Source of the DNA: Ricordea florida
Lineage: Eukaryota > Cnidaria > Anthozoa > Corallimorpharia > Ricordeidae
Assembly: GCA_949710005.1 (NCBI GenBank)
Contig: OX453281.1
Span: forward strand, 27,592,339 to 27,656,338
Length of the DNA: 64,000 nucleotides
Reading direction: 5' to 3'
Shown: positions 15,840 through 26,711 of the stretch, piece by piece
Layout of the letters: every line of letters begins with the position of its first letter
How positions within the stretch are numbered: position 1 is the first letter of the stretch
Notes under the pieces: generated by a model
Seen by the model: the letters and a program-made list of their open reading frames with translations, nothing else
What the model was told of the DNA's origin: nothing
Databases searched by the model: none
Made by a program: the position numbers and the translations under genes

Positions 15840-16332
15840 CGGTTTAAAGTACATTGCTTAACATCTCTTCCTAGTCAAGGCTACCAGCACCGTCTTCTCA
15901 AGAGCTGCTTTGGTCTTTCGGCCCTCTGGTGCCCGCACTGGTTACGAACCTTCAGTACTTGGTTCTGCATTACCTTGGGTAGAATAGGTAGATCCAACTG
16001 TCCTTCGACCCTATCTCCGGTCCAACAAGCCATCCTTGTACAACAAGCCATCCTTCTCTGTTATCTTGCTCCACTGCTGTAGCCGTCTCCTTGCTGGTTT
16101 TGTCTCCCGTGCTCTCTCCCTCTTGTTGCGTCCCAAATACCGGTAGTAGATCAACCGTGCTATGGTTGGGTCGTCCTTCTGCACCGCCATCTCCTCCTTA
16201 GTGACAGTTGGTAAGGACGTAGACTGCTGGTCTGCTGACAGGTTTGGTTGAATTTCGGCCATCGCGGCTGCTGCTGATGCTAGTTTCTCTCTCACTTCGT
16301 CTGATAGGTGGGTGGACGCTGCCGTATTGGCC
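15840..16332 (-). pseudogene. Gypsy-A pol: linker and integrase zinc-binding region
   Basis: On the minus strand the frame reads from THLSDEVREKL through DDPTIARLIYYRYLGR, the linker between RNase H and integrase in Gypsy elements. After a frameshift it reaches a degraded H2C2 finger (CGHQRAERPKQLLRRRCW). It is the continuation of the Gypsy-A remnant at 24281-26650: removing the TIR element between 16342 and 24271 plus one duplication copy puts the RNase H side in the same frame as this one. Confidence 0.7.
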
Positions 16333-16341
16333 AGTACTACG
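16333..16341. repeat. 9-bp target-site duplication, left copy (AGTACTACG)
   Basis: Matches AGTACTGCG at 24272-24280 in 8 of 9 positions. Flanks the 7.93-kb TIR element. Confidence 0.75.
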
Positions 16342-17235
16342 TAGTCTCCTCCGCAGCCGTTATTAGGATCGTCATGCAACGCTTCTCCTCCACTAACGGC
16401 TGCTTAAATCTGAACTCTATTTGTTTCCGCGGATTAGCCAATCGCAACATCCCTCACATATTCCTGAGGCGGTCGCGCCAAGACTAAATTGTCCAATCAC
16501 AACTCGTGTTCTATCGGCTACGGATAGTGAAAGTGGATTGAGGAGGGAGAATATCCCAGTGTTTTCGGGTTACCAGGAGCGTGGCTGTTGAATGATCGTT
16601 GAAGAACGATGTTGTTCAATGATGTATACAATAGAAAGTTATGTGCCGTGGCTATTGATGAAGCTTATGTTATAAACCAGTGGCAAGTTAAGGGTCAATT
16701 GGACGCTTGTTTTTGTTTGTCAATTCCGCTTCTGAAGTTACATTTTTGATAGGAAATCCTGTGTGAATTAATTTACAAGTACTGTAGGTATTGAAATCGT
16801 AAGCTTGTGACTTCACTTTTCGCGCCCGGGATATTTTTATTAAGCTTGCCTGAGAAGAAAAAGCATAAGCATAATACACAGGCCGAAGACTTATTTGCTG
16901 GCGAGCCTTGGCGATACAGCTCACTATTTGAGAAGGTCGGCGGTGTTCCATATCATATAAGCGTTGAAAAATCTCGATTTTTCGGATGTCAGATTCGGGG
17001 CATGCGCAGTTTGGCGTTTTTGTTATGTTACGTCACAATTATTTCTTCTGCACGTTTCACCGCAATGCTGGCGGTTGACAAGTCCGGAAGAGTTGAAAGG
17101 TGAGGGATTTTCCTTATTTCGATTGCCTACATATTTCTAAATGCCCGGGGAAGTATTCGTAAAGGTCACGGTCAGTTTAGTGATGAATCGCGAGGACGAC
17201 ACGAGGTTTTCATGAGTTTGTCTGCCTTACTATGA

Positions 17236-17685
17236 GACCAGTTGTGGCCAATTCGGCAATGGTGGTTTGAAAAAATCGATTGCGTCTTTCGTCATGGAGG
17301 TTATTTGTTCCTCAATACACTTCAAACGGGGCAACCACTATATAAAGAGACTTTCCCTCTGAGTAAATTACCGCCTCCAGCTTGCCTGTCTTCGGAGATA
17401 TTCGTGAAAGGTCAATTGGAAAACAGATCTGTCGCTGAACTGAGTTCTGAGCGCGTCAAGGGGAAGCACAAGGTTACTAGCTCGCCCGTTGAGGCTAAAT
17501 CTTTGACCGTTCAGTCAAAAAGTCTGTCGCCCGTTGAGGCAAAATACTCGACCGTTGAGTCACAAAGTCTGTCGCCCGAGGAGACACAACAGTCGGCCTT
17601 AGAATTTATGCAACTGTTTTGTTCCCAGAATGAACTGGACTTCTTTGTTATTGTTATTACCTTCTTGAAGTCAGTTTTATCTTAA
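17236..17685 (+). CDS. Unidentified open frame inside the 7.93-kb TIR element
   Basis: About 149 codons, open from just after a TGA at 17233-17235 to TAA. There is no ATG near its start, so it may be an exon preceded by a short one: ATG at 17065, then 13 codons to a GT donor (AGTTGAAAG|GTGAGG). The middle holds two or three imperfect copies of a short motif, SPVEAKSLTVQSKSLS and LSPVEAKYSTVESQSLS. I recognise no family. It could be a captured host exon or a decayed element gene. Confidence 0.3.
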   Translation, partial: DQLWPIRQWWFEKIDCVFRHGGYLFLNTLQTGQPLYKETFPLSKLPPPACLSSEIFVKGQLENRSVAELSSERVKGKHKVTSSPVEAKSLTVQSKSLSPVEAKYSTVESQSLSPEETQQSALEFMQLFCSQNELDFFVIVITFLKSVLS

Positions 17686-18510
17686 ATATCTGAGAATTGT
17701 TTACACCAAGATCTTACAGTTACAGTTACGCTTAAATGTCACAATGAATGTATTAAATTGTTCATTCCTTTCTAATATTGATGTTGCAGTTTCAATTGTG
17801 TCTGAACAGTATTTCACACCCTTCACACTACATACACTTCTCTTGAACTCAGAACTTCCCTTTAAAAATAACACGATAATTGTAGAAATACTCCAAAAAC
17901 ACGCTTTGAAAACATACCAAAGCGTTAGAGCATAAATAAATAGTTGCCACCAAATCTCCTTCCAAATACCACCATCTTTTTACTACGGGAATATCCAGAG
18001 GATCTTGAACTAACCTAATTTTCTGCTTACCCCTCCTCTTTTCCAAACCACTTCCCCTCGCCAGCACTCGCTTTCACATTGAAATTTCTAGTTTATATCG
18101 ATAAATAGTGGATTTGGGCAATTCCTATGTGAATTTCCTTTACAACTCGCGTACACGAATTATCAATATATTAAGCGTACTTCATTTGTTGTACACAATA
18201 AATATTTGATTTCAAGCATTAGTTTATCACAAGATGGCAACATAGCAGCATTTCGAGACTGTTATTCTCAGCTTTCCTCAACATCGAAGGGTTGTATTTT
18301 GAGCACAAGCCAGTTATTTCTTTTGACGCAATCTTCAAGACCTTTTCAATTACGTGTTGTCGTAGTGGTCATTATTCTGCTTCCGCGATTTGCGATGGAA
18401 CGCCATGAGCCAAGGCCTTTTCAACGTACTCGTTAGCCGATGATAAAGTATTGTTCACATTTTTACTCCGATACTTAAAGGACACTTTGACTTGACTCGT
18501 ATCACGAGAG

Positions 18511-24700: not shown

Positions 24701-24965
24701 CCCAGCAGGTGCTGTGTTACCTCTTGGAAGACATTAGGGGGTATCCGGCGGTGCCGCTACGTAACGAGTACGTCATCGTCAGTGTGGATGCGGAGGAAGA
24801 TCGTAGAAGTGCACCCCATGTCGTTCTTATCTGGGAGCTCCAGCTTCCTCTGCCAAAGCGCCATGCCCTCAGCTTCTCGATTGGCATCTGAGGATCAGCA
24901 CTAAGATTGCAGGAGACTGTCACCGTGTTGCCTTCTTGAAAGAACTCCAATGGCTCCAATTGCAA

Positions 24966-25881
24966 TTTGCAGTGTGCTTTGCCACCTTCACCACAAAAAA
25001 CGCCTAAGAGGTGTCAATTACAGTGTTAGCCACAGTTAGATTCCCTGTAATCGGAACCGCAAGCGGTTCTACAACAGCTCTACAACCCCACTGTAGGCCA
25101 GTTACTAAAACAGCGGTTTCACTAAAAGGCGGGACCCACACTTGACCAGACCCAGAAACGTTAGCGAAACATTTTCGTACTTTCCGATTGTTTTGAAAAG
25201 GTTCCTTGAATTGGGGACGCTGTGCTAACATGTTACAACCAAAAATACTGGGAACCCGTCTTCGCATACCCGCAGTGGCTGGAGTGTCCTTGGGTACAAG
25301 GATTCCACAGTTAGGGGTGTCAACCCCCCTATTTCCACTGTGGTGCTGAGGACCCGACGTAGGGGATGTCCAAGCCGTTGGCGCCTCTAAATGGTTGTAC
25401 GTTTGCACGTATACGTGCAAACGTACAACCACCCTCCTGTATATCCCCATGCGTCGGTTGCAGTTGGTCCCGGAATTAAGAAGGACTCGGTGACGAAGGA
25501 CACTATAGAGCCAATGTCGATCAATCCTCGCACTGGCACACCACCGATCTTAGCCATCACCGTGGGAGTTGTTGAAATCAGCCACTGCCTTTCCCCTCCA
25601 CGGCCGCGGCACGGTTCACTGCCGTGGAGGTTTGGAGTTTGACGACTCTTTCTCGCTCCCTTTCTCTGGTTCTTTCCTTTCGTCGGTCTTTCTCCACTTT
25701 GACTCTCAGTCCCGACGGCCGCTCTTACAGTCGCGGGTGAGGTGACCGATCCGCCCACAGTTGAAGGCTTGAAGCACCGTCTGAACTCCTGGGGCTTGTC
25801 CTGTACTTTCCAGGTTAGTGAGGCTGGGGCTACTTGGGTTTCGGCCAGAAGCTTCTCCTGTTGTTGACGACTCTCGATCAA
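24966..25881 (-). pseudogene. Gypsy-A protease region and gag end
   Basis: The minus-strand frame from 25881 passes a decayed zinc-knuckle region and reaches KIGGVPVRGLIDIGSIVSFV, an aspartic protease core in which the expected D-T/S-G reads D-I-G. After the palindrome at 25392-25431 it continues as VDTPNCGILVPKDTP and later WVPPFSETAVLV, typical of the Mag-type Gypsy protease-RT linker. The reverse transcriptase that should follow is missing: the sequence goes almost straight to RNase H. Confidence 0.65.
25392..25431. repeat. Perfect 40-bp palindrome
   Basis: The left half TGGTTGTACGTTTGCACGTA is followed immediately by its exact reverse complement. It sits inside the Gypsy-A protease remnant and has no spacer. 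Confidence 0.9.
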
Positions 25882-26650
25882 GAGCTTCTGGCTGGAAAGG
25901 AGGTCCTGTGTGACCTTTGCTGAGGGAATGCCAATAACCTGCTCACACTACAGATGTTCCATGGTATCCACCTCTATGGTATGAGCAGTGCGGAGTTCCT
26001 GTCGCTCCTCTTCAAGGGTGCGCTTGGCTTTATCACGGATCGCCTGGAAACTCTTGAAGGGGTTCTGGCGTACCATTCGCCTCAAATCCCGTCGCGGTTG
26101 AGAGTCTCGGAGGTTTTTCCACGACCCCGGTCACCATCGTTCATGTCGCCATGCGTCTTCTCCGGTTGGTCGAGGAGGGCCATCACGACATGCGAATAAT
26201 ACTGGACGGACTCCCCCTCCATCTGGCGTCGGCCATAGAACCTCTGCAGGAACTTGGTGAGTGTGAGCTTCTCCCCAAAAGTGTCGCGCAGAAGGGCAAA
26301 CATCAGGTCGGTGGAGGACAATTCTGCTGACGGTTGCAGTCTCATCTGGTTCCCTTGCTTCTCCCTCCAGGTTATGGTATAAAAATTCCACAGCCTCCAA
26401 CCCGGTCAGCTTCTGTGCCGTTATCGCTCTCTTGGCATCCTCGATCCATTCCTCTATTACCTTGTCATCCCGTCCCCCAGCGCAGCGTACTTTCTCAACT
26501 TCCTCTCCCGGGGGACCTTCACTTGGATTACCGGTGCGGTGGTACCAGTGGCTGAGTCAGCTACCAAACCGCTGTTCAATGGTCGAGCCGTGCTTGTAAC
26601 GCAGCCAACTTCGTTGACAGGTTCTCCTCAGTCGCCATTATTATCGTTCC
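25882..26650 (-). pseudogene. Gypsy-A gag region
   Basis: Two overlapping minus-strand frames (26400-26131 and 26345-26082) carry the gag core: LTGLEAVEFLYHNLEGEARE, then LRDTFGEKLTLTKFLQRFYG and GESVQYYSHVVMALLD. The probable start is the ATG near 26640 (MATEENLSTKLAALQ), followed by stops and shifts. Not functional. Confidence 0.6.
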
Positions 26651-26693
26651 CGATTATCTATCTTAAGTAATTATACTCTCAACCAGTGACAAT

Positions 26694-26711
26694 CTCACTC
26701 CTGACACCAAA
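26694..26711 (-). promoter_or_regulatory. Primer-binding-site-like sequence of Gypsy-A
   Basis: Reads TTTGGTGTCAGGAGTGAG on the minus strand, about 55 bp upstream of the gag start. The position and the TTTGGTGTCA phrase fit a Gypsy leader; the LTR beyond it was not delimited. Confidence 0.4.

Follow-up and report, generated by a model that had tools for sequence, protein, structure and literature searches.

A three-deep transposon nest in Ricordea florida around a shortened RecQ/DUF6589 element

One locus of the corallimorpharian Ricordea florida raises the question of whether a broken retrotransposon gene, a long element with inverted ends and several smaller repeats form a true nest with a readable order of insertion, and of what kind of transposon the middle layer is. 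The locus lies in a 64-kb stretch (the window; contig C10, 27592339-27656338) of a 537.8-Mb genome in 48 contigs. We confirmed that the nest is real: the decayed pol of a Gypsy retrotransposon (Gypsy-A) was entered by a DNA transposon with terminal inverted repeats (TIRs), which was in turn entered by three later mobile elements. A first-pass annotation made from the letters alone had described a five-level nest, and every piece that it named (the Gypsy-A halves, the TIRs, a tandem repeat, the retrotransposon Gypsy-B and a hairpin) was found in the sequence. However, Gypsy-B, the hairpin and a 1.2-kb repeat are siblings within the TIR element; thus the nesting depth is three, and "five-level" is a tally of components. 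The nest is ordinary transposon biology, well supported, with one insertion, the 1.2-kb repeat, overlooked in the first pass. The middle layer is an internal-deletion derivative of 6.6-6.9-kb elements that encode a RecQ helicase and a DUF6589 protein.

The order of the two outer layers was read from a second copy of the surrounding block. A probe from the left of the insertion found two genomic places, the window itself and a block on contig C2 (locus L063; 86% identity). The C2 block is collinear with window positions 8236-9110, 13618-13833, 13850-16334 and 24284-26779 (gapped, 82-91%). At the insertion point it joins exactly, as the search for empty sites proposed in the first pass anticipated, and reads CC-AGCTCCACG-CTTACTGATGC, a single 9-bp stretch versus two in the window. 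The claim of one frame across the Gypsy-A join held: minus-strand frame 24274-24441 continues into 16014-16343 via a CTG codon when the halves are joined at one duplication copy, and an open reading frame (ORF) of 189 amino acids (aa) in C2 (L063 5842-6408, minus strand) spans the point unbroken. Because C2 is a natural empty site with an open ORF, Gypsy-A preceded the TIR element. The duplication flanking the TIR element agrees at 8/9 positions, as originally described; at least 8/9 at fixed ends would be expected by chance at about 1e-4. The left copy ends in ACG as in C2, so the mismatch probably arose in the right copy.

The genome also holds the TIR element's relatives. A search with its left 317 bp returned 885 candidates; the best 40 were scored and 30 fetched, including the window's own. 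Two-ended copies were identified by regular expression with 5 edits allowed. The fetched loci contained 22 two-ended copies, mostly 1.54-1.58 kb with the same interior (two were 356 and 614 bp), and their flanking duplications matched 9/9 in 21/22. One further copy, 2,154 bp long and flanked on each side by CTATGTCTC, came from a wider fetch (L066). The TIR pair thus recurs elsewhere as whole elements sharing an interior. The first 44 bp of the TIR, with at most 3 mismatches, matched 439 + 464 genomic places versus 0 + 0 for a reversed-pattern control. These copies (9/9 duplications; 903 TIR ends versus 0) exclude a chance arrangement of the nest parts. With TIRs and a duplication of fixed length in independent copies (21/22 copies, and the full-length parents at 9/9), this is a cut-and-paste TIR transposon. 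The inverted ends, put at about 88 bp in the first pass, measure 87 bp. The reported 7.93 kb is correct as a span, and by origin the element is about 1.99 kb, as computed without the three inserts. Among the 44-bp matches listed, a number of TIR pairs lie 96-153 bp apart and are near-pure hairpins of both ends.

The short copies keep a DEAH-helicase-like fragment, and domain searches with such fragments returned only weak helicase matches. The L007 fragment scored E=0.016 to DEAD and E=0.026 to a RecQ family model, and better (5e-5) with DpdF, another helicase-like model. Searches of the window's own short frames against Pfam, NCBIfam and PDB returned little. Parents were sought with the helicase fragment (a 73-aa RecQ query; best 150 of 367 candidates scored) and spotted by their open frames: four places at 89% identity each had a 225-aa frame. 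Of these, L067 holds an element of 6,619 bp (C4:10642707-10649325) that has the same TIRs and is flanked at each end by GTGCTATTG, and L075 holds one of 6,912 bp (C9:1188825-1195736) flanked at each end by GAGTCATAG. Where the two align, their identity is 99.8-100%. At the guessed far ends of the C7 and C8 copies no TIR was found in one small fetch, and the C9 end needed a longer fetch. L067 itself sits inside what we take to be a Copia-like pol (L067:6527-8001; minus-strand frame 6652-8001, with a stretch resembling RNase H next to the TIR).

The plus strand of the parents encodes a RecQ helicase (DEAD 2.7e-17; Helicase_C 5.2e-17; RecQ_Zn_bind 1.5e-4, just below cut-off), with WRN as the best PDB hits (1.6e-12) and 1e-40 to the RecQ family model for one exon. 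The minus strand encodes DUF6589 (E=2.7e-30 and 1.6e-8), and the L067 protein has a zf-AD-like start (E=0.0027, below the curated cut-off). The two genes are convergent. Compared with the parent, the window element lacks about 4.4 kb; in addition, a 0.3-kb stretch is absent near 16532 and there are smaller differences. The 1.5-kb copies align unbroken across the deletion junction, and therefore the deletion predates their spread.

The tandem repeat (220 bp aligned, 90% identity) was counted as a level of the nest in the first pass and is instead a duplication within the minus-strand coding exon of the element itself, of a segment that is single in both L067 and L075. Gypsy-B sits inside one tandem copy; therefore, the tandem duplication came earlier. 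The claim that Gypsy-B struck the 218-bp repeat with a GAATC duplication was borne out, the 5 bp being read at both ends. Gypsy-B is a Ty3/Gypsy element by its two long terminal repeats (LTRs), its 5-bp duplication and its order of reverse transcriptase (RT), RNase H and integrase. L067 has no break at the insertion point, where its match to 18265-18682 shares 6 bp with its match to 23296-23332, made up of the 5-bp duplication and one further base. The LTR gave 248 candidates, the best 40 of which scored 98-100%. Among these 40, same-strand LTR pairs less than 8 kb apart were spaced 4,410-4,415 bp in 14/16 cases, the window's own included. Gypsy-B therefore looks young and abundant.

Insertion sites were compared in 31 relatives, namely 29 fetched family loci plus L067 and L075. 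Gypsy-B and the 1.2-kb repeat were in none of these loci within the sequence fetched. The hairpin is an independent insertion with its own exact duplication, as first proposed. Its empty site showed a 9-bp overlap in 17/31 relatives, an 8-bp overlap in 2/31 and a 12-bp overlap in 5/31; there was no overlap in 1/31, and the site lay outside coverage in 6/31. Among the twelve loci read of the hairpin family, two pairs (L049/L050 and L047/L055) each represent one place seen on opposite strands, leaving 10 places including the window's own, with duplications of 9/9 at nine and 8/9 at one. As a short TIR element in many copies with a fixed duplication, it is a miniature inverted-repeat transposable element (MITE). 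Elements of about 1.2 kb that end in the hairpin arms (L064:1001-2208, L065:1001-2204) are larger relatives of this MITE.

The 1.2-kb repeat gave 322 candidates (best 40 scored), whose copies elsewhere begin and end at the same positions or close to them. Its site is contiguous within 10 bp in 26/31 relatives and uncovered in 5/31. Across nine copies, including the window's own, most 3' ends read CTAG before T, and GCTGGCGAG / CTCGCCAGC lie inverted near the ends. A 45-bp tandem lies inside the repeat. Helitrons and Helentrons are marked by the lack of a duplication and by a CTRR end or asymmetric terminal repeats, and the 1.2-kb repeat may be Helitron/Helentron-like.

The joints, the empty sites, the family and the parents with their gene content were observed directly, and the order Gypsy-A, TIR element, tandem duplication, Gypsy-B was upheld. 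We propose the following course of events. A decayed Gypsy element sat in a block present twice in the genome (C2 and C10), and on C10 a DNA transposon entered its pol, duplicating 9 bp. That transposon was a shortened RecQ/DUF6589 derivative, an L067/L075-type parent minus about 4.4 kb internally, whose deletion product kept both TIRs and multiplied. In the window copy, about 218 bp of leftover DUF6589 coding exon became a tandem duplication, one copy of which Gypsy-B then entered with its 5-bp duplication. The 110-bp hairpin MITE, with its 9-bp duplication, and the 1.2-kb repeat were independent arrivals; Gypsy-B, hairpin and 1.2-kb repeat have no fixed order among themselves. The cut-and-paste transposase that mobilises the short copies in trans would be DUF6589, and RecQ would be an accessory helicase. 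We regard this account as a whole, from block and TIR insertion through deletion ancestry and later inserts to the putative DUF6589 transposase, as highly probable.

The proposed transposase role draws on how DUF6589 is distributed. DUF6589 was matched 103 times in this genome, and not once in 14 control genomes of unstated kind. RecQ and DUF6589 matches less than 10 kb apart formed 15 pairs, all convergent, versus 0.57 expected under random placement, in a comparison of the best 150 RecQ-like matches (one 73-aa query) with the 103 DUF6589 matches. Copies of one family are not independent, so the independent convergent cases are fewer than 15. A diverged second family (RecQ fragment 55% identical) has the same convergent layout and a similar TIR. 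Its C1 and C5 copies begin with TAGCCTCCTTCGCAGCCGTT and end in its inverse, with duplications of CCGGAGAAC and CAGCTTCAC, 9/9 each; identity to L067 is 58% in the aligned portion of its DUF6589 piece, and 36% in the N-terminus. A conserved D...EHSN stretch in DUF6589 is suggestive only as a sign of a transposase. We infer that DUF6589 acts as the transposase, in trans on short copies, and that RecQ may aid excision or repair. That it serves an undescribed TIR group with TAGYCTCC termini, 9-bp duplications and a convergent RecQ, with hundreds of deletion derivatives here, is a tentative proposal that we consider possible but doubtful. Tracing the parents thus gives DUF6589, a Pfam family of unknown function, a candidate role as transposase. 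Five pattern matches in viral contigs contained no DUF6589 relative. In the literature search the word "DUF6589" occurred in no paper, and matches to "PF20231" looked unrelated by title.

Other readings of the element bear on different parts of this evidence. If the two TIRs were independent short inverted-repeat MITEs that flank the stretch by chance, short TIR-to-TIR elements should exist, and they do (96-153 bp apart among the matches listed, and 356 and 614 bp). Yet in the relatives both ends recur around a common interior, in copies that mostly measure 1.5-1.6 kb and show 9/9 duplications. The window element has a 9-bp duplication at its borders and an empty site elsewhere; the shared interior and the empty site refute this reading, which we give next to no chance. 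The element might instead be a Mutator-like element (MULE), or of Rehavkus type, with RecQ and DUF6589 as passengers. It resembles these in its 9-bp duplications and long TIRs, which the available text of PMC6446971 lists for several MULE groups and Rehavkus, and differs in carrying RecQ and DUF6589. In the same portion of that source the words "RecQ" and "helicase" are absent and a table assigns a PHD finger to Rehavkus. No MULE transposase was matched in Pfam by the parent frames scanned (seven from L067, two from L075 and one from L080, with some short frames outside the scan), and the RecQ/DUF6589 pair is conserved in the diverged second family; a MULE origin is therefore improbable.

A less remote alternative is that DUF6589 is a second accessory protein and that the transposase lies in another exon or a different element. 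Two minus-strand frames of L067 (3972-4775 and 4717-5097) have no Pfam match, and DUF6589 has no fold support, nor any transposase match, among solved structures. Even so, it is the only domain above cut-off among the minus-strand frames scanned and recurs with a similar TIR in the diverged family, and we think this alternative unlikely.

Some observations weigh against our own account, with DUF6589 as the putative transposase of a deletion-derived element. The window element's 9-bp duplication is imperfect (8/9), and the remaining one of the 22 two-ended copies (L009) carries a displaced repeat that agrees at 4/9 positions when read in register. The Gypsy-A step is backed by one empty-site block only, because the probe had just one other genomic match. 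The 1.2-kb repeat has no clear target duplication in the nine copies compared. All four 225-aa frames have a stop inside the match, which we took as an exon end, and L067 and L075 each lack a segment present in the other, so that neither has all parent segments. For 88/103 DUF6589 matches there was no RecQ-like match within 10 kb among the 150 scored matches compared. No solved structure matched DUF6589 outside a C2H2 finger; a weak third hit, to a cilia protein (E=0.36), overlaps the C2H2-finger part.

Table 1. Positions of the nest components within the window.
Feature	Position	Strand	Details
Gypsy-A left half (pol end, linker toward integrase), decayed	15840..16332	-	minus frame 16014-16343; L063 collinear, ~86%
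Target duplication (9 bp), left	16333..16341		AGTACTACG
TIR DNA transposon, internally deleted, three later insertions	16342..24271		7,930 bp
Left TIR	16342..16428	+	81/87 vs right arm, gapless
RecQ-like helicase exon remnant (DEAH region)	16531..16746	+	88% to L007 fragment, one stop inside; parent exon RecQ
Independent 1.2-kb dispersed repeat	16895..18095		within TIR element; overlooked in first pass
Internal-deletion junction	18265..18273		~4.4 kb of parent gone; sides match parent ~1117 and ~5512
DUF6589-gene 5' exon remnant	18274..18681	-	includes left part of tandem copy 1; 88% to L067 5419-5844
Tandem copy 1, left part	18520..18681		resumes 23301-23355
GAATC duplication, left	18677..18681
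Gypsy-B LTR retrotransposon	18682..23295	+
Gypsy-B 5' LTR	18682..18881	+	199/200 identical to 3' LTR
Gypsy-B single frame, 1,360 aa	18928..23010	+	RT, RNase H, integrase matches
Gypsy-B 3' LTR	23096..23295	+
GAATC duplication, right	23296..23300
Tandem copy 2	23356..23574
Hairpin duplication, left	23624..23632		CGTTTTGCC
Hairpin MITE, 110 bp	23633..23742
Hairpin duplication, right	23743..23751		CGTTTTGCC, exact copy of left
Remnant, zf-AD-like N-terminus of DUF6589 protein	23853..24014	-	zf-AD E=0.078, below curated cut-off
Right TIR	24185..24271	-	81/87 vs left arm, gapless
Target duplication (9 bp), right	24272..24280		AGTACTGCG (CGCAGTACT on minus strand)
Gypsy-A right half (gag to RNase H), decayed	24281..26711	-	collinear with L063, gaps

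In Gypsy-A, only the RNase H piece (24526-24756; RT_RNaseH_2 E=4.8e-6, RT_RNaseH E=1.8e-5) had a retroelement match among 11 pieces scanned, two of them in overlapping forms, and no LTR pair was found in the window or in L063. Given this decay and the lack of an LTR pair, the outer limits of 15840 and 26711, which were those of the first pass, are unconfirmed as element ends. Further left, about 4.5 kb of the window (9111-13617) has no counterpart in the C2 block and carries short direct repeats near its ends. It is probably a further insertion after the block duplication, with frames that are presumably BEL/Pao-like. ARAGORN found no tRNA gene in the window. A 67-bp tandem array (98%) lies at 36167-36431, and two long palindromic stretches lie at 32797-33002 and 30495-30628.

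Around six further TIR copies with no nearby second end (L057-L062, some with N runs), neither a listing of frames nor a search for TIRs revealed a parent. L057:4852-7550 is a long minisatellite, in which three overlapping frames of 790-884 aa consist of one short repeated peptide. Several long frames beside the TIR copy at L061:2836-9684 have what we take to be the look of large virus-like transposon genes.

Nesting with target duplications is routine, as in the table of nested clusters in the available part of PMC4522978. The present locus resembles such clusters of LTR and DNA transposons in this respect; here, the insertion order is supported by paralogous empty sites for the TIR element, the hairpin, the 1.2-kb repeat and the Gypsy-B point. 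Among transposons that carry a helicase, Kolobok elements (KolobokH; Kolobok-1_CCri) have a RecQ helicase with the transposase, on the complementary strand in Kolobok-1_CCri, and make TTAA-specific 4-bp duplications, according to the available part of PMC9587614. The likeness is a RecQ gene beside a (here putative) transposase, and the difference is that the duplications here are 9 bp with no fixed motif; membership in Kolobok was rejected on this ground. Academ elements also encode a RecQ helicase, as stated in the available part of PMC3627910. The elements described here likewise encode their own RecQ. Academ and AcademH are otherwise defined by an Academ-type DDD/E transposase. Kojima is said to have described AcademH, in Mobile DNA in 2020, as helicase-bearing Academ TIR elements of animals and fungi with duplications of about 9-10 bp, and the group found here may be that published lineage. 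If that description is right, these elements probably belong to AcademH, and the DUF6589 link alone would be new. They add a case of a TIR transposon that encodes a RecQ helicase of its own; enzymes of this class are linked to DNA repair.

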